Position numbers and translations under genes: made by a program
Shown here: positions 6,873 to 16,289 of the stretch, piece by piece
Layout of the letters: each line of letters begins with the position of its first letter
How positions within the stretch are numbered: position 1 is the first letter of the stretch
Origin: Fibrobacterota bacterium
Lineage (GTDB): Bacteria > Fibrobacterota > Chitinivibrionia > Chitinivibrionales > FEN-1185
Reading direction: 5' to 3'
DNA: 16,289 bases
Assembly (NCBI GenBank): GCA_003165595.1
Contig: PLWQ01000007.1
Span: forward strand, 82,110-98,398
The notes under the pieces: model-generated
Told to the model about the DNA's origin: nothing
Database searches by the model: none
The model's input: the letters and a program-made list of their open reading frames with translations, nothing else

Positions 6873-7931
6873 ATGAGAAAGAATATGTTGGCAACGGTGG
6901 GTGTGTGTTGCGCGGTGATGGTTGCCTCTTTTTCCGGCTGCGACAGCCTCAAGAACATGGGAAAGAAGCAGGCCAGGAACGACGCAGTGGTGCAGAGAAT
7001 AAAGGTGGACGTTGCAATCGACACGGTGGTCCGCCGCACCCTGTACCAGGAACGCAAGGTGCTCGGCACGCTGTCGGCCTACCGTGAAACGGATTTGGCG
7101 CCGCTTGCCATGGGCGCGGTCCGGGTGCGGTACCTGCCGGTGAAGATAGGCGACTACGTTGAACAGGGCCAGATCGTTGCGAAGATGGACGACGCGCAGT
7201 TCGTGCAGACGGACGCGCAGTTCGCGTCTCTCAAGTCGCAGTACGAGCGATCAAAGTCGCTGTACGAGGCAAACGCCCTTCCCAAGGCGCAATTCGAAGG
7301 CGTTGAGGCGCAGTATATGAGCATGAAGCGGCAGATGGAGACGATGGCGGAAAACACCGTGCTCAAGGCGCCGTTCTCGGGTTTGATAACGGCAAAATCG
7401 GTTGAAGAAGGGGAGCTGTACACGACATCCATGACTCCCGGCGCGTCAAAGGGACTCGTGCGCATTACGCAGCTCAATCCGCTCAAGGTGGACCTTGATT
7501 TGGACGACCAGACTGTCCAGTATGTCAAGAAGGGCATGCAGGTGCAGCTCTCGGTTGACAATGCGAAAGACAGCGCCCGCGTGACCGGCAGGGTCGATTG
7601 GGTGAACCCGGTGGCCGGTTCCATGAGCCGCACGTTTGGTGCGCGTATCATTGTTCAGAATCCGCAGCGCAAGCTCCTGCCGGGATATTTCGCGGAGGTC
7701 CATATTCTTATGGGCAGGAAGGACAATTGCCTTGCCGTGCCGCGCTCGGCCGTGGTGGACGACAGGGTTTTTGTTTTGCAGGGCGGCCTGGCGCTCGCGA
7801 AGAAAGTTGAAGTGGGAACCATTGCCGACAGCCTGGTTGAAATCGTGTCCGGATTGAACGAAAAGGACGTGGTTGTGGTGAGCGGAAACAAGGCGCTGCC
7901 GGACAGCGCGGAAGTGAATGTAATAAAGTGA
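6873..7931 (+). CDS. RND efflux periplasmic adaptor (membrane fusion lipoprotein)
   Basis: A 352-residue HlyD/AcrA-type adaptor linking the RND pump to the outer-membrane channel. The open frame extends back to 6816, but a lipoprotein signal begins at the double ATG (6870/6873). The second ATG has AGAGGG (6863-6868) at 4 nt, so I take 6873. The lipobox is S-F-S-G-C with the lipidated Cys at residue 23. The following residue is Asp, which in enterobacteria favours inner-membrane retention, as expected for an adaptor. The biotinyl-lipoyl-like halves are visible: VRYLPVKIGDYVEQGQIVAKMDD and ENTVLKAPFSGLITAKSVEEGE. A short coiled-coil hairpin lies between them, and a beta-barrel plus membrane-proximal domain follow (GYFAEVHI, AVPRSAVV). 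The TGA stop lies within the first unit of a heptamer tandem repeat. Confidence 0.92.
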   Translation: MRKNMLATVGVCCAVMVASFSGCDSLKNMGKKQARNDAVVQRIKVDVAIDTVVRRTLYQERKVLGTLSAYRETDLAPLAMGAVRVRYLPVKIGDYVEQGQIVAKMDDAQFVQTDAQFASLKSQYERSKSLYEANALPKAQFEGVEAQYMSMKRQMETMAENTVLKAPFSGLITAKSVEEGELYTTSMTPGASKGLVRITQLNPLKVDLDLDDQTVQYVKKGMQVQLSVDNAKDSARVTGRVDWVNPVAGSMSRTFGARIIVQNPQRKLLPGYFAEVHILMGRKDNCLAVPRSAVVDDRVFVLQGGLALAKKVEVGTIADSLVEIVSGLNEKDVVVVSGNKALPDSAEVNVIK

Positions 7932-11573: not shown

Positions 11574-12869
11574 TCAGGCATCCGCAGGGCTGGCAACCGG
11601 CACGCCGGGGCGGTTGAGGACGTGCGTGTAGATCATGGTTGTTGACACATCGGAGTGGCCGAGCAGCTCCTGCACCGTGCGGATGTCCGCGCCGGACTGC
11701 AACAGCTGGGTTGCAAAGGTGTGGCGCAGTGTGTGGCAGCTCACGCGTTTTGCTATGCCCGCGTCCAGCGAGGCCTGTTTGATTCGTCGCTGGAGCACGT
11801 TCGGGTCAAGGTGGTGACGCCGCACAAGCCGGGTGCGCGGGTCAACCGAGAGCTTTTCCGAAGGGAAGACATACTGCCAGATCCACTCTTTTGCAGCGTT
11901 CGGGTACTTCCGCTCGATTGAATCCCAAAGGTATACTCCCGCGATTTTACCTGCCTTGTCCTCGTTGAATATCCTCTTCGCAACCGCAAGCTGCTCCTTG
12001 AGCGGCGCCACGAAGCGCGCGGGCAGCACCGTAACCCTGTCCTTGGCGCCCTTGCCGTCGCGAATGATGATCCGGTGCATGTCGAAGTCTATGTCCTGCA
12101 CCCGAAGTCGCACGCATTCCATCACGCGCAGCCCGGATCCCCATAGAAGTCCGGCCATAACCTGCCACGCTCCGTCGAGCCCGGCGAGAAGCTTATTGAC
12201 TTCGTTTTTGGTAAGAACCGTCGGCACGCGAACGGGCCGCTTGGCCAAAGAGAAATCGGCAAAGTCGCCGGGATCCCGCCTGAGCACCCGGGAATACAGA
12301 AAGACAATGGCGTTGAGCGCCTGATTTTGCGTCGAGGAGGAAACTCTTCGCTCCTCGGCAAGATACGTGAGGTAGCGCCGGATGTCCGGAGCCCCGAGGT
12401 TTTCCGGGTTCTTGAGCAGATGAAACGAAAGAAACCGTTTTATCCAAAACAGGTATGCATCCTCTGTGCGTATCGAATAGTGGCGTACCCGGATTTCAGA
12501 TACAAATCGCTTTATGAGACCGCCATGAAGCTTGAGCAGCTTCTCATTATCGACAACCGAATCGGCGAAACTCTCCGGGCACGGAAGTGATTTTCCCGGG
12601 TCTAGTTTGAGGTGTTTGTCGAGAAGGATTTCGATGCTGTGCCGCGCCTGTTGGACCTGCCAATCCGCGATTTGCTCCTCCTTCGCAAGACCGTTGAGGA
12701 ATGCCGAAACCATATCCCGAGAGGCCTGCTCAAAAGGCAGGCCATTCAGGAACCATGCAAAACGTTTGGCCCACAGGACATAAAACTTGCTTTTGGGGTC
12801 AGAAATACCTAGTTTTTGGAGAGTTGCGGTGTAAGAATTCCAGAAAGACGCTGGGATAACGGAGGCCAT
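11574..12869 (-). CDS. intI: Integron integrase with extra N-terminal domain
   Basis: A 431-residue tyrosine recombinase that inserts and excises gene cassettes between attI and attC sites. The start is 12869, with GGAGGG 7 nt upstream (12877-12882); the ATG at 12911 lacks a site. The catalytic residues are R248 (GSGLRVMECVRL), H379 and R382 (CHTLRHTFAT), H405 (LLGHSDVSTTMIYTH) and Y414. The IntI-specific insertion that separates integron integrases from XerCD is present (SIERKYPNAAKEWIWQYVFPS, about residues 317-337, then DPRTRLVRRHH). Class 1 IntI has its catalytic Arg at residue 146, so about 100 extra residues precede the core here. They look like a second SAM-like DNA-binding domain (residues ~10-90: YVLWAKRFAWFLNG...DWQVQQARHSIEILLDKHL) ahead of the normal one (~130-197). 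It is divergent from the array, as in standard integrons. No canonical LexA box was seen upstream. Confidence 0.95.
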   Translation of the reverse strand: MASVIPASFWNSYTATLQKLGISDPKSKFYVLWAKRFAWFLNGLPFEQASRDMVSAFLNGLAKEEQIADWQVQQARHSIEILLDKHLKLDPGKSLPCPESFADSVVDNEKLLKLHGGLIKRFVSEIRVRHYSIRTEDAYLFWIKRFLSFHLLKNPENLGAPDIRRYLTYLAEERRVSSSTQNQALNAIVFLYSRVLRRDPGDFADFSLAKRPVRVPTVLTKNEVNKLLAGLDGAWQVMAGLLWGSGLRVMECVRLRVQDIDFDMHRIIIRDGKGAKDRVTVLPARFVAPLKEQLAVAKRIFNEDKAGKIAGVYLWDSIERKYPNAAKEWIWQYVFPSEKLSVDPRTRLVRRHHLDPNVLQRRIKQASLDAGIAKRVSCHTLRHTFATQLLQSGADIRTVQELLGHSDVSTTMIYTHVLNRPGVPVASPADA

Positions 12870-12969
12870 GGCGGTACCCTCCAAGTTAGTGTTGATATCG
12901 TTGGTGTCCATGTTTGTCGCCCATCGAAAAAAAGAATTCCGGTTGGCCTAAAAAAAATTTGATTAAATC

Positions 12970-12998
12970 TTGACTCTAATAGTGATACCATATATAAT
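12970..12998 (+). promoter_or_regulatory. Near-consensus promoter of the toxin-antitoxin pair (leaderless)
   Basis: The -35 is TTGACT (12970-12975), the spacer is exactly 17 bp, and the -10 is TATAAT (12993-12998). Transcription should start about 7 nt later, at or next to the toxin ATG (13005), giving a leaderless mRNA. A directly repeated ATACCAT (12985-12991 and 12997-13003, 12-bp period) overlaps the -10 and is a candidate operator for the ribbon-helix-helix antitoxin. Confidence 0.7.
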
Positions 12999-13004
12999 AC
13001 CATT

Positions 13005-13427
13005 ATGAATAAAGTAGATATCGTATTAGATACCAATATTCTGTTTTCCGGCCTCTATTCACAGTATGGCGCCTCTTACTCTCTTCTTTCAAAGATTGGA
13101 AGAGGGAAAATTAACTTGCATGTTTCCGTTCCATTGGTTTTTGAGTACGAAGAGGTATTAAAGAGGAATCAAAAAGAACTCGGACTTTCACCTGAAGAAA
13201 TTGATGACGTTCTTGAGTTCTTATGTTCCGTGTCAATGCCTCATTTTCTCTATTTTTCATGGCGACCATGCTTAAACGACCCGGATGACGAAATGCTTTT
13301 AGAACTTGCAATTGCAGCAAATGCACGCTATATAATTACCTATAATGTTCGACATTTTAAAGGCCTTCGGGGGTTCAATGTTCGGGCAATAAAACCATCA
13401 GACTTTCTAAAACTATTGGAGGAATAA
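13005..13427 (+). CDS. PIN-domain toxin (ribonuclease), type II TA system
   Basis: A 140-residue PIN-domain protein of the 'putative toxin component, PIN family' (COG1569-like) group, probably a metal-dependent RNase inhibited by the protein encoded next. The first acidic residue is in IVLDTNILFSGL (D9). A conserved Glu lies in PLVFEYEEVLKR, and the acidic DPDDEMLLELA block is followed by ARYIITYNVRHFKGL. In that last block many relatives carry GD/D and this one has YN, also common in this subgroup. The start codon has no upstream ribosome site and lies at the predicted transcription start, so translation is probably leaderless and weak. The TAA is one base before the antitoxin ATG. The gene is AT-rich compared with the backbone and sits between intI and the first clear cassette boundary. 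Confidence 0.88.
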   Translation: MNKVDIVLDTNILFSGLYSQYGASYSLLSKIGRGKINLHVSVPLVFEYEEVLKRNQKELGLSPEEIDDVLEFLCSVSMPHFLYFSWRPCLNDPDDEMLLELAIAANARYIITYNVRHFKGLRGFNVRAIKPSDFLKLLEE

Positions 13428-13428
13428 T

Positions 13429-13665
13429 ATGAGTGCAATTTCTTTGCGTTTGCCAAATTCTATCCATTCCCGAGTAAGGCATCTTGCCAAATATGATGGC
13501 GTCTCTGTAAATCAATTTATAACCGTTGCATTAACAGAAAAACTCTCGGTCATGAATGCCGCAGAATATTTTGAGGAAAAAGCAAAAAAAGGCAACAGGG
13601 AAAAATATGACAAAGTTCTTTCAAAAGTACCAAAGAGAGAACCGCTTGAATATGACAAGAAATAA
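13429..13665 (+). CDS. Ribbon-helix-helix antitoxin
   Basis: A 78-residue partner of the PIN toxin. The N-terminus SAISLRLPNSIHSRVRHLAKYDGVSVNQFITVALTEKLS has the beta-strand, helix, helix pattern of RHH (HicB/CopG-like) DNA-binding antitoxins. The C-terminus (AAEYFEEKAKKGNREKYDKVLSKVPKREPLEYDK) is the charged tail typical of antitoxins paired with PIN toxins, and would wrap the toxin's active site. It has a strong GGAGG site (13418-13422, 6 nt spacing), in contrast with the leaderless toxin, so antitoxin should be made in excess. It probably autorepresses the promoter at 12970-12998 through the ATACCAT repeats. Confidence 0.88.
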   Translation: MSAISLRLPNSIHSRVRHLAKYDGVSVNQFITVALTEKLSVMNAAEYFEEKAKKGNREKYDKVLSKVPKREPLEYDKK

Positions 13666-13995
13666 AGATGTCCGCCGAAAAACGGCGCATGCACGACCAC
13701 CAACAGCGGCAACATGCTAGGGCCTCCCCCGATGAATCGGGATTTGAATATTCTATTTTTTGCTGTACCAACGGCAAATGGACGTTATTGCCCCGATGAG
13801 CCGTCTTTGAGCGGCGTGTGAAGCGAAGATGTATCCGTTTAAGCCAGTAATATTTTGGGATGCCAGGTGAATACCATCACTGCACACCAAGACGCCATAT
13901 TGAATATACCGTTTAATATAATATTGGATATACCGTTTGCACAAATATCTTTTTATGTCGCTTGATTTCTAATACCTGTTAGGTGCAAATAAAAT
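13666..13995. other. Gap between TA pair and first cassette gene: candidate attI region
   Basis: This 330-bp AT-rich gap has no gene I can support. Just after the antitoxin is a small hairpin CGCCG-AAAAA-CGGCG (13673-13687); further on is CCCGAT-GA-ATCGGG (13728-13741). Neither has a T tract. At the right end are two 18-bp direct repeats and the core GTTAGGT (13978-13984), where the first cassette joins. The region does not resemble the attC sites downstream: it lacks the CATGAC...GTC and TTTGCAAAC blocks. It is therefore either attI or a badly decayed attC. Confidence 0.55.
13897..13984 (+). other. Candidate attI site (direct repeats plus GTTAGGT core)
   Basis: Two direct repeats differ at one base: ATATTGAATATACCGTTT (13897-13914) and ATATTGGATATACCGTTT (13921-13938), with a 24-bp period. 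The crossover-type core GTTAGGT follows at 13978-13984 inside ACCT-GTT-AGGT. In attI1 of class 1 integrons two directly repeated integrase-binding sites also lie upstream of the core. A TATAAT at 13917-13922 could be the -10 of a cassette promoter, though its -35 is poor. The core is unambiguous as a cassette boundary; the attI label is an inference. Confidence 0.45.
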
Positions 13996-14765
13996 ATGAA
14001 TAAATCAATAAACGGATGCTGGTGCAATAGTGAGCATAAGTCGCTATATCCAATCTTAAAGAAATGGTTAAATATTAATTCATTATTTGCGGAACGTGAA
14101 AATGGTCATGGTCCTTGGGGTGATACTGAACGGTCATCTGTTGGTATTTTGGCAGCAGCAGTTTGGAAATCGAACAATTATTGTTTTGAGGAATACCATT
14201 TTGAAAAACGAAATGTTAATGGACAAGGTAAAATTGAAAAAGGCAAATATAAAGGGAGAATAGATATTTGGTTTAGTGCTGCCAAAAGCGAATATGTTGG
14301 AGAAGCAAAAAGATGCTATCCAAAAGCATCATTACGAAATTCAATCAAAATCAATTTGGAAATTAACAAATCAATTAACAACGCAATGTCGCAAGTGAGG
14401 CAAATTAGAGCAATAAGAACAAAGAAAATAGCAATAGTATTTGTTAATCCGCGCTTTAATAATGGGGAAAGTAATTATACAGTGCAGGAGTTTGTAAATA
14501 AAATAACAACAGAAATTGAATGCGATGCAATGGCTTGGGTATTTCCGAAAATATCAAGGAATACTAACGTTCATGATAACGCTAAATTTCCAGGAACAAT
14601 TCTAATAATAAAGGCAAATTAAAACAGAAAAGCACCTAACAACGCGCTAAATCATGACCTTCCGCATTTGCAAACACCCTTGGTTCGCGGTCGGTCGGTT
14701 CTTCATACAAGATTCGTGGTTTGCAAAGAGAAATTGCAGTCGTAGTCAGGCATATTAGCGCGGCG
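13979..14765 (+). mobile_element. Integron gene cassette 1 (putative nuclease)
   Basis: A 787-bp cassette running from TTAGGT to the G of its attC core. The box at its start (GTTAGGT, 13978-13984) is the exact reverse complement of the box opening its attC (ACCTAAC, 14634-14640). This is required because both come from one attC when the cassette is circular. It contains one gene in the canonical orientation. Confidence 0.9.
13996..14622 (+). CDS. Cassette 1 protein, putative PD-(D/E)XK nuclease
   Basis: A 208-residue protein whose family I do not recognise. The ATG lies 12 nt after the cassette core with no ribosome site, common for cassette genes read from an upstream promoter. The central segment GRIDIWF-(7 residues)-YVGEAKR reads as the two active-site strands of the PD-(D/E)XK fold: Asp90, then Glu103-x-Lys105, with hydrophobic residues around each. 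Acidic residues upstream (Glu45, Glu65-66) could supply the helix-1 ligand. The C-terminal half has strand/helix alternation (TKKIAIVFVNPRF, IECDAMAWVFP, GTILIIKAN) consistent with the rest of an alpha/beta nuclease core. Low GC and Lys/Asn/Ile-rich composition set it apart from the backbone. A DNA-targeting defence role is plausible but not shown; a non-catalytic relative is also possible. Confidence 0.65.
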   Translation: MNKSINGCWCNSEHKSLYPILKKWLNINSLFAERENGHGPWGDTERSSVGILAAAVWKSNNYCFEEYHFEKRNVNGQGKIEKGKYKGRIDIWFSAAKSEYVGEAKRCYPKASLRNSIKINLEINKSINNAMSQVRQIRAIRTKKIAIVFVNPRFNNGESNYTVQEFVNKITTEIECDAMAWVFPKISRNTNVHDNAKFPGTILIIKAN

Positions 14766-14771
14766 TTAGGC
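14634..14771 (+). repeat. attC site of cassette 1 (138 bp)
   Basis: It opens with ACCTAAC and closes with GTTAGGC. The inner arms pair: AACGCGCTAA... with ...TTAGCGCGGCGTT, and ATGAC with GTC..GCAT with extrahelical bases. A TTTGCAAACAC block pairs with GTGGTTTGCAAA towards the tip. Length and text closely match the next two sites. Confidence 0.92.
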
Positions 14772-15352
14772 ATTAGAAATTCAATGAATAATACAAATAA
14801 CAATAATACCAATCAATTTACGCCAAACGATCTTACCGTTCTTAATCAGGATTTGAGGAATGTTTCCGGATCACTTTGCGTATTTGGAGATTGGTTTGGG
14901 CGTCCGATGGACAATTTTCACAAAGTAATTAAATTTGAAATCAAACCGGATTATTTAAGAATAGATTTCAATGATGACGAAACGTTGGAAACGTGGAATG
15001 GAAACCATGTTGAAATAAGAAATACACAATTATTAATTCACAATGCTTCTCGGGTTCGGTGGGAATGGTATTACTACGGAAAACCCAAACTACTTAAGAA
15101 TAGGTTCTTTATCGAACATACTGTTGGCGATGATAAGGTAAAAGCGGACTCAAATGCAACTTGGTACAAACCCGAATATCGACCGACCCTGAGAGCACCG
15201 GCTATAAGAATTGGATAAATGCCTAACAACGCGCTCAATCATGACTTTCCGCATTTGCAAACAGCTTTGGTTTGCGGGAGGTCGGTTCTTCATACAAGTT
15301 TTGTGGTTTGCAAAGGTAAAATGCGGTCGTAGTCAAGCATATTAGCGCGGCG
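14766..15352 (+). mobile_element. Integron gene cassette 2 (uncharacterised protein)
   Basis: A 587-bp cassette. Its opening box GTTAGGC (14765-14771) is the exact reverse complement of GCCTAAC (15221-15227), the first box of its own attC. It has one plus-strand gene occupying nearly the whole non-attC part. Confidence 0.9.
14784..15218 (+). CDS. Cassette 2 protein, uncharacterised
   Basis: A 144-residue soluble protein. The open frame extends back into the preceding attC through a TTG at 14721, but the first ATG inside the cassette is 14784, 13 nt after the core, so I start there; no clear ribosome site precedes it. After a low-complexity Asn-rich leader (MNNTNNNNTNQF) comes a compact, aromatic-rich domain: SLCVFGDWFGRPMDN, YLRIDFNDDETLETWNG, LLIHNASRVRWEWYYYG and NRFFIEHTV. 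It ends in WYKPEYRPTLRAPAIRIG. There is no signal peptide or membrane segment. The WEWYYYGKPK...FIEH stretch seems familiar from small conserved hypothetical proteins, but I cannot name the family or give a function. Confidence 0.75.
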   Translation: MNNTNNNNTNQFTPNDLTVLNQDLRNVSGSLCVFGDWFGRPMDNFHKVIKFEIKPDYLRIDFNDDETLETWNGNHVEIRNTQLLIHNASRVRWEWYYYGKPKLLKNRFFIEHTVGDDKVKADSNATWYKPEYRPTLRAPAIRIG

Positions 15353-15358
15353 TTATTT
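15221..15358 (+). repeat. attC site of cassette 2 (138 bp)
   Basis: It opens GCCTAAC and closes GTTATTT. It shares with the previous site the CATGAC, CCGCATTTGCAAACA, GGTCGGTTCTTCATACAAG, GTGGTTTGCAAAG and GCATATTAGCGCGGCGTT blocks. The closing box departs from the usual GTTRRRY consensus but is matched by the AAATAAC that opens the next attC. Confidence 0.92.
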
Positions 15359-15371
15359 TGCAAGCCGCGAA

Positions 15372-15555
15372 ATCGCCCTCCGGGCGATGGATTAATACAA
15401 AGAGATCAGAGAAGACAAAAGAGATTTAATACAATTGAGAATAAGAATGGCGCGCTGGTGGGCTTAAATGGCGGGAATTGCGCCAAGACAATTAAGACAA
15501 ATACGAATTGAAAACGATAATAAAAAGCAGCGTCGCACTCCCCCGTGCTCGCTGC
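15372..15555 (+). ncRNA. Candidate structured RNA in cassette 3
   Basis: The non-attC part of this cassette has no gene longer than 35 codons. It is bounded by strong hairpins at 15372-15388 and 15527-15555, themselves enclosed by 17-18 nt complementary ends. Small RNAs encoded by ORF-less integron cassettes are known from Xanthomonas. No promoter with both boxes is evident, and the strand is assumed from cassette orientation. Confidence 0.3.
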
Positions 15556-15575
15556 GAGGCGGCTTGCGAAAATAA
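15468..15575 (+). CDS. Possible 35-residue small ORF in cassette 3
   Basis: An ATG frame starting at 15468 gives a basic 35-residue peptide (MAGIAPRQLRQIRIENDNKK, then QRRTPPCSLRGGLRK). It stops at a TAA lying inside the AAATAAC box of the attC, the same stop placement as the gene of cassette 4. There is no ribosome site and no recognisable motif, and it overlaps the strong hairpin at 15527-15555. It may be chance; I list it because it is the only candidate gene in this cassette. Confidence 0.2.
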   Translation: MAGIAPRQLRQIRIENDNKKQRRTPPCSLRGGLRK

Positions 15576-15707
15576 CAAGGCGTTAAATCATGACTGTCCG
15601 CGTCTGCAAACACCTTTTGCGTGCCAGCACTCTCCCACTATCGGAAAAGTGGTGGTTTGCGGAGAGAATATGCGGTCGTAGTCCAGCATATTAACGCCGC
15701 GTTAGCC
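15570..15707 (+). repeat. attC site of cassette 3 (138 bp)
   Basis: It opens AAATAAC and closes GTTAGCC. The inner arms GGCGTTAA / TTAACGCC differ from the GCGCTAA / TTAGCGC of the other sites but stay paired, a compensatory change that supports selection on the folded strand. The central tip is diverged from the first two sites, yet total length is the same. Confidence 0.92.
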
Positions 15708-15737
15708 TTGAAATAATCAAGGCATTGAGGAGTATGA

Positions 15738-16271
15738 ATGAATATCTATTTTGAAAAAGAATTTATGCTCGTCTCCTTTCGGAAAAGACAGAAATATATT
15801 GTATGGTCTCATTCTAATTTGGCGAACAAGCTGCTTTTTCTTTTTGCTGCAATTTGTACTATAAATTTGTTTGTTACGGAAACACACGTTGTCGTTGTTG
15901 GAAATTCATCAACACAACAAATAGGTGGAGCGTGGTCAAATACTTCAATTCTACTTCTTATTTTTATTTGTTGTTTCTACCTTCAAAACAATTGGGAATA
16001 TTTCAAACATCTTAGAAAATTAATTGGAATCAATGCAATTCAATTCATTGAATTCAATGAAAACGGAATAAGATATGGTTGGAAAGAATTATGGGAAATT
16101 AAATCATCATGGGTAACCGTAACAAGATATAACCTTAATTCATCTGGAACCATTTCTTTTAGGATATCTGGGAAAAGAATAATTATTAATCGAAATTACT
16201 TTACTGAAAATCAAATTGAAGAGATAAAAATATATTTAGAAAGCAACGAAATAGGAATTAAGAAAGGCTAA
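15738..16271 (+). CDS. Cassette 4 protein, two-TM YcxB-like membrane protein
   Basis: A 177-residue protein with a ribosome site GAGGAG (15727-15732) 5 nt before the ATG, unlike the first two cassette genes. The layout is a short cytoplasmic N-terminus, TM1 (NKLLFLFAAICTINLFV, about residues 30-46), a brief polar loop (NSSTQQIGGAWSN), TM2 (TSILLLIFICCFYLQ, about 69-83) and a C-terminal soluble domain. That domain contains FIEFNENGIRYGWKELWEIKSSWVTVTRY, then SGTISFRISGKRIIINRNYFTENQIEEIKIYL. This resembles the YcxB-like C-terminal domain: an ENGI-x(n)-W strand pair, then a segment ending in R-x-F/Y before the final helix. The family's function is not established. The TAA stop lies inside the GGCTAAC box of its own attC, so gene and recombination site overlap. 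Confidence 0.75.
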   Translation: MNIYFEKEFMLVSFRKRQKYIVWSHSNLANKLLFLFAAICTINLFVTETHVVVVGNSSTQQIGGAWSNTSILLLIFICCFYLQNNWEYFKHLRKLIGINAIQFIEFNENGIRYGWKELWEIKSSWVTVTRYNLNSSGTISFRISGKRIIINRNYFTENQIEEIKIYLESNEIGIKKG

Positions 16272-16289
16272 CATATAGATAAAGGTCCG
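16266..16289 (+). repeat. attC site of cassette 4 (start only)
   Basis: GGCTAAC (16266-16272) is the exact complement of the box at the start of this cassette (15701-15707), so it should be the left end of the next attC. Only 24 bp are visible. The text after the box (ATATAGATAAAGGTCCG) already differs from the other three sites, so this attC may be of a different type. Confidence 0.65.

Follow-up and report, generated by a model that had tools for sequence, protein, structure and literature searches.

Sedentary chromosomal integrons, such as the Vibrio cholerae superintegron, combine an integrase gene (intI) divergent from an array of attC sites, an attI site, one dominant attC family found across the genus, and cassettes without assigned function. 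To our knowledge, the structural and biochemical work on integron integrases (IntIs) rests on a short form, represented by IntI1 and VchIntI. A survey of tyrosine recombinases classes integron integrases as "simple", two-domain enzymes (PMC8138268). Here we describe a 16,289-nucleotide stretch of DNA from an environmental bacterium (the window). It spans bases 82110 to 98398 of a contig 98,398 bases long, and its right end is also the contig end. Judged from its sequence, this right end very likely carries a sedentary chromosomal integron, composed of intI, a conserved attI and three full attC sites, with a fourth present as its first box only. The integron claim of the original prediction was borne out in both observation and interpretation, by the intI model, attI, the attC sites and the matched cassette ends. 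That prediction did not include the duplicated core-binding domain, the insertion sequence in attC4 or the toxin-antitoxin insert described below. As a platform, the integron belongs to a known type and has the anatomy of a textbook example, in a host that is not a proteobacterium. It differs from the described chromosomal integrons in its host outside Proteobacteria, an array visible to the fourth cassette only, two intI loci in the genome, an attI 1.1 kb from intI, and a duplicated core-binding domain in the integrase. We consider this duplicated domain to matter more than the integron itself, and the variant to be worth testing.

The source genome (G000; 5.39 Mb in 42 contigs, judged 98% complete) was compared with a sister species of the same genus (G031), a member of the same family (G032), a member of the same order (G003), and a set of 167 genomes from the phylum in which one family is dominant. 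The genome encodes 13 copies of Fib_succ_major, the Fibrobacter major paralogous domain, and none was found in ten genomes from other phyla; the domain occurs in Bacteroidota too. These copies, together with the dominance of one family among the 167 genomes, point to Fibrobacterota, probably the phylum of the host, in agreement with its predicted position outside the well-studied proteobacterial set. No description of integrons in Fibrobacterota was found in the open-access literature, and the window adds a well-formed integron, with a genus-specific attC family and an attI, from a phylum absent from the surveys found in open-access text. Efflux (AcrB-type) and metabolic genes adjoin intI on the 98-kb contig, a chromosomal context with no mobile-element frame.

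The integrase and its extra N-terminal domain

The intI gene (11574-12911, minus strand) encodes 445 aa when read from the first ATG. The ATG at 12869, 8 nt behind GGAGGG, is the likelier start and would give 431 aa, consistent with its relatives. The protein scores 446.6 bits with TIGR02249 (cut-off 265), against 152 with the XerC model and 148 with the XerD model, and Pfam finds two SAM_4 stretches and Phage_integrase. Its best relative in the PDB is the V. cholerae integron integrase VchIntI (IntI4; 2A3V, E 7.6e-89). The alignment with 2A3V runs through the IntI-specific insert, as had been predicted, and retains the full set of catalytic residues. In trees, the recombinase groups with IntI1 and VchIntI, apart from three Xer proteins; it is an IntI, not a XerC or XerD. 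With VchIntI and IntI1 it shares the canonical core-binding domain (residues 132-213) and the catalytic domain with the IntI insert (residues 232-432), at about 45-49% identity over residues 140-445. In contrast to both, it adds about 115 N-terminal residues that hold a second, SAM-like core-binding domain (residues 20-108), whereas a classical two-domain IntI has no further domain.

Several lines of evidence converge on this extra domain. The N-terminal ~115 residues alone match Phage_int_SAM_4 at 30.8 bits (cut-off 27), as do 14 of the 26 aligned sequences. AlphaFold predicts a four-helix bundle, with a predicted local distance difference test score (pLDDT) >90 over residues 21-100. Among PDB structures, the extra domain most resembles the core-binding domain of 2A3V, with a Z of 12.7 over 89 residues; XerA follows at Z 11.7, and unrelated helical bundles reach about 5. 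Codon differences among the integrases of the genus fall mainly at third positions in this stretch. We conclude that this stretch is a genuine coding region that specifies a second core-binding domain. Its sequence is far less conserved than that of the inner core-binding domain.

IntIs with this domain (the long form) extend beyond the window. In the phylum, each of the 14 complete IntIs found is long. The gammaproteobacterial class was sampled by an even draw of 369 genomes, with 150 IntI open frames listed; here open-frame length serves as a proxy, the domain itself having been checked in the loci actually read. Lengths are bimodal, with most frames at 320-400 aa and a second group, 33 of the 150, at 425-519 aa. 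Roughly one in five gammaproteobacterial IntIs of the even draw is thus of the long form, as is every complete IntI of the phylum. Long IntIs were also found in Thermodesulfobacteriota, Nitrospirota and Nitrospinota. On a quick tree, two to three trait changes were needed, compared with about 31 in shuffles. A tree constraining all long forms together had a higher likelihood and was not rejected (approximately unbiased test, p-AU 0.77), and the sequences are compatible with a single clade of long IntIs. A quick Xer-rooted tree hinted that short IntIs are nested within long ones, with domain loss in IntI1; this was dropped in favor of the likelier long-together tree. NCBI labels one long-form protein, from Thiodictyon, "integron integrase", and no description of the added N-terminal domain or of a long form of integron integrases was found in open-access text.

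The most likely role for the extra domain, by inference, is arm-type DNA binding (or protein contact). In the window, attI (13897-13984, plus strand) contains a pair of 18-bp direct repeats that precede the core and were found by repeat search (13897-13914 and 13921-13938). They are followed by TATGTCGCTTGATTTCTAATACCT and then by the core GTTAGGT (13978-13984). The outer core-binding copy would grip these repeats, or contact protein, and the grip on attI may help favor it as the site of cassette entry. Phage and integrative and conjugative element integrases with arm-binding domains (PMC8138268) likewise carry an added N-terminal domain before the core-binding and catalytic domains; the added domain here differs in being a copy of the core-binding fold. 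The extra domain could instead be a protein-protein module, for synapsis or for a partner, or a mere regulatory appendage, and this alternative falls only somewhat short of an even chance. Core-binding domains of tyrosine recombinases are known to make subunit contacts too, and the outer domain is much less conserved than the inner, both of which would suit such a module. However, in fold and family it agrees with a DNA-binding domain, and two direct repeats do lie upstream of the attI core, neither of which is decisive. Only tentatively, then, do we put forward the wider proposal that IntIs comprise two deep forms, that the outer domain of the long one reads accessory repeats in attI much as phage integrases read arm sites, and that the window holds a member of an undescribed form; we rate this proposal as doubtful. 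If it is true that the outer domain binds the attI repeats, this would offer a way to study why cassettes enter at attI rather than elsewhere.

attI, cassettes and attC sites

The attI core fits G/TTRRRY, and crossover is expected after G13978. A CTAATA----GTTA-type core, together with about 75 bp of weaker similarity, is shared by the window, contig C9 of the same genome, the sister species, G032 and G003. On contig C20 of the genome, about 0.75 kb before its end, we observed an attI-like sequence, GACGACATTATG...TTTGATGACTAGTACAC/GTTAGGG, with one cassette and no intI match on that contig; it is possibly an orphan attI.

Four cassettes follow attI, all on the plus strand. Cassette 1 (13979-14765) holds an open reading frame (ORF) of 208 aa (13996-14622) and has complementary ends GTTAGGTGC/GCACCTAAC. 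Cassette 2 (14766-15352) holds an ORF of 144 aa (14784-15218), and neither of these two products has a family match. Cassette 3 (15353-15701; ends GTTATTTTGCAAGCCGC/GCGGCTTGCGAAAATAAC) has no convincing gene, and its 35-codon ORF ends within the R'' box. Cassette 4 (15702-16273; ends GTTAGCCTT/AAGGCTAAC), whose attC is truncated, holds an ORF of 177 aa (15738-16271) without significant family match. Searches of Pfam, NCBIfam, PADLOC and PHROG gave no match that would assign a function to the cassettes.

The original prediction had noted that, within each cassette, the opening core box and the first attC box are complementary. Their match is exact in all four cassettes, and the complementarity extends past the 7-nt box, to 9, 10, 8 and 9 bp, respectively. 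A custom attC detector applied to 80 named loci proved too strict (15 cassettes only), and the cassette set of the genus was used instead. All 13 cassettes of the genome and the sister species are complementary over 7-11 bp, at least 8 nt in ten of them and at least 9 nt in six. The mean match was 8.5 bp, compared with 5.4 for shuffled partners, and none of 20,000 shuffles reached the observed mean. Such complementarity is expected if the circular cassette is to carry a foldable attC. Familiar cassettes such as aadA likewise match past the 7-nt core, and we claim no novelty for this. Separately, the 5' and 3' ends of cassette 3 (15353-15576) are near-complementary over 17 nt, far past the R boxes.

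The three full attC sites lie on the plus strand at 14634-14771 (attC1; R'' ACCTAAC, R' GTTAGGC), 15221-15358 (attC2; R'' GCCTAAC, R' GTTATTT) and 15570-15707 (attC3; R'' AAATAAC, R' GTTAGCC). As predicted, they are of equal length, exactly 138 bp each from R'' start to R' end, and share their sequence. In a repeat search they form a single family, the other two sites being 90% and 69% identical to the first. Of attC4, the R'' box GGCTAAC is read directly at 16266-16272 (plus strand). The hairpin with R''/L''/L'/R' anatomy is present in attC1-3, as supported by repeat search, folding and covariation. Across 18 sites from the two species, the R, L and central hairpin positions are paired in 89% of cells, compared with 28-40% after a shift of one side by 1-3 columns, and the covariation score was matched by 3 of 500 shuffles. 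Compensatory changes affect both sides in four of the ten L-stem pairs, for example CGCGCTAA/TTAGCGCG versus GGCGTTAA/TTAACGCC in attC3. When folded as single-stranded DNA and compared with shuffles, the bottom strand of attC1 gives a z of -3.7.

An attC covariance model was built from eight sites of the genome, so it is not independent for the window sites. It scores the unseen sites of the sister species mostly at 85-155 bits. The family model places 13 sites in the genome, some of them decayed, and 19 in the sister species, with none in the genomes of the same family (G032) and the same order (G003). Genus-specific attC sites are a hallmark of sedentary chromosomal integrons, and the predicted sedentary type of the array agrees with this one-family, genus-restricted distribution. 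An Rfam scan of the window gave no match, no attC model firing among them.

In the mechanism we propose, IntI would bind the folded bottom strand of the attC hairpin and join it to the double-stranded attI beside the integrase gene. Promoterless cassettes would thereby be added at attI, and excision would proceed by attC x attC exchange. By inference from these features, the integron would be active. Several points weigh against this view of the locus. Bottom-strand folding only moderately beats shuffles for attC2 (z -2.0) and attC3 (z -1.6). The distance of 1.1 kb between attI and the integrase start is unusual and may affect function, and the attI repeats could be incidental. The array is visible as four cassettes only, up to the contig end, in an assembly fragmented at these repeats. 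Chromosomal integrons would be expected to have large arrays of tens of cassettes; the arrays here probably continue beyond the contig ends, as related attC sites sit on other contig ends.

Later insertions and degraded copies

Two later events appear to have altered the integron. The first is a toxin-antitoxin module of about 710 bp (12969-13676, plus strand), which lies between intI and attI and is the reason for the 1.1-kb distance. It comprises, on the plus strand, a PIN_3 toxin-like ORF (13005-13427; Pfam PIN_3, 75 bits) and a HicB/CopG-like antitoxin ORF (13429-13665; Pfam HicB, 27.9 bits). The module is absent between intI and attI in C9 and in the sister species, where the distance is about 0.15-0.2 kb. 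A 709-bp copy of the pair, 81.7% identical, is found in G032 outside any integron; the pair is therefore a mobile module rather than a cassette.

The second event is the interruption of the array. The original prediction described a complete integron. Its integrase, attI and cassettes are in place, but a multicopy insertion sequence (IS) in attC4 cuts the array off just past the first box of that site, which is also where the contig ends. The IS end TATAGATAAAGGTCCG (16274-16289, plus strand) is inserted between R'' and L'' of attC4, and the contig ends with it. In the window, GGCTAAC is followed by A/TATAGATAAAGGTCCG; this 15-mer also comes after R'' at C9:1-15 and C20:117318-117332, and the junction R''-A/TATAGATAAAGGTCC is common to the three arrays. 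The opposite IS end, GGGGGCCTTTATCTATA/ATATC, abuts the L'' of attC sites on C19, C29 and, in the sister species, G031:C35. The junctions shared at both ends therefore point to a multicopy IS at a fixed place and in a fixed orientation between R'' and L''. Its inverted repeats are TATAGATAAAGGYCC, and further ends were observed at C19:73-87, C29:1-15, C36:3-17 and G031:C35:97571-97585.

IS1111-attC elements are known to target one end of certain attC sites (PMC11187229). With ISKpn4 and ISPst6 of this group (PMC11187229), the present IS shares a fixed, orientation-specific insertion point close to one end of attC and inverted repeats of about 12 bp just inside its ends. It differs in that no assembled copy carries a transposase, the element bodies being unassembled, and a search of the assembled genome for the DEDD (IS110-type) transposase PF01548 found none. 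The sister species has a single IS110-type transposase, which was considered and rejected as part of a different element. The IS is probably a relative of IS1111-attC in a new phylum.

These insertions raise the possibility that the integron is a fossil, in which intI is intact but the array can no longer change, owing to the IS in attC4 and to the toxin-antitoxin module lying between intI and attI. In three of the genome's arrays the IS directly follows R'', attI is shifted by about 0.9 kb, and the genome also contains a 5' remnant of intI on C40 and an interrupted attC on C34. Nevertheless, the intI frame is open, with purifying selection indicated by codon-position counts and the catalytic residues retained, attC1-3 are intact with matched R boxes, and a second integron of the genome has an undisturbed attI. 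We therefore regard a fossil as unlikely and favor a chromosomal integron that is probably still active, interrupted by later events.

The second integron has an intI at G000:C9:3025-4290, 70% identical to that of the window, and an array (C9:1-2615) that runs to the contig start and is interrupted by the IS too. The C40 remnant (G000:C40:4816-4944) is similar to IntI residues 1-45, and the end of that contig bears an attC-like site (7468-7576); together they are possibly the remains of a third integron. The attC on C34 (G000:C34:181877-182181) is interrupted by an insert that is palindromic, roughly 190 bp long and distinct from the IS.

It is highly improbable that the attC sites are merely a dispersed palindromic repeat, resembling repetitive extragenic palindromes or miniature inverted-repeat transposable elements, beside an Xer-like recombinase whose integron look is coincidental: lone attC-like copies with lost R boxes do occur on C37 (inside a 673-kb contig), C24 and C19, but they resemble decayed attC sites, both intI genes of the genome and that of the sister species adjoin attI and same-orientation sites, the R boxes within arrays are intact with complementary cassette ends, and the recombinase is an IntI by profile model and tree. 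We dropped that reading and treat the lone copies (C37:238414-238558, C24:905-1034, C19:108-204 and C23:9010-9140), which have lost their R boxes and kept the central hairpin, as probably decayed attC sites. Several of them carry TTCAAGAAAGAT in place of the TTCATACAAGAT of the array sites.

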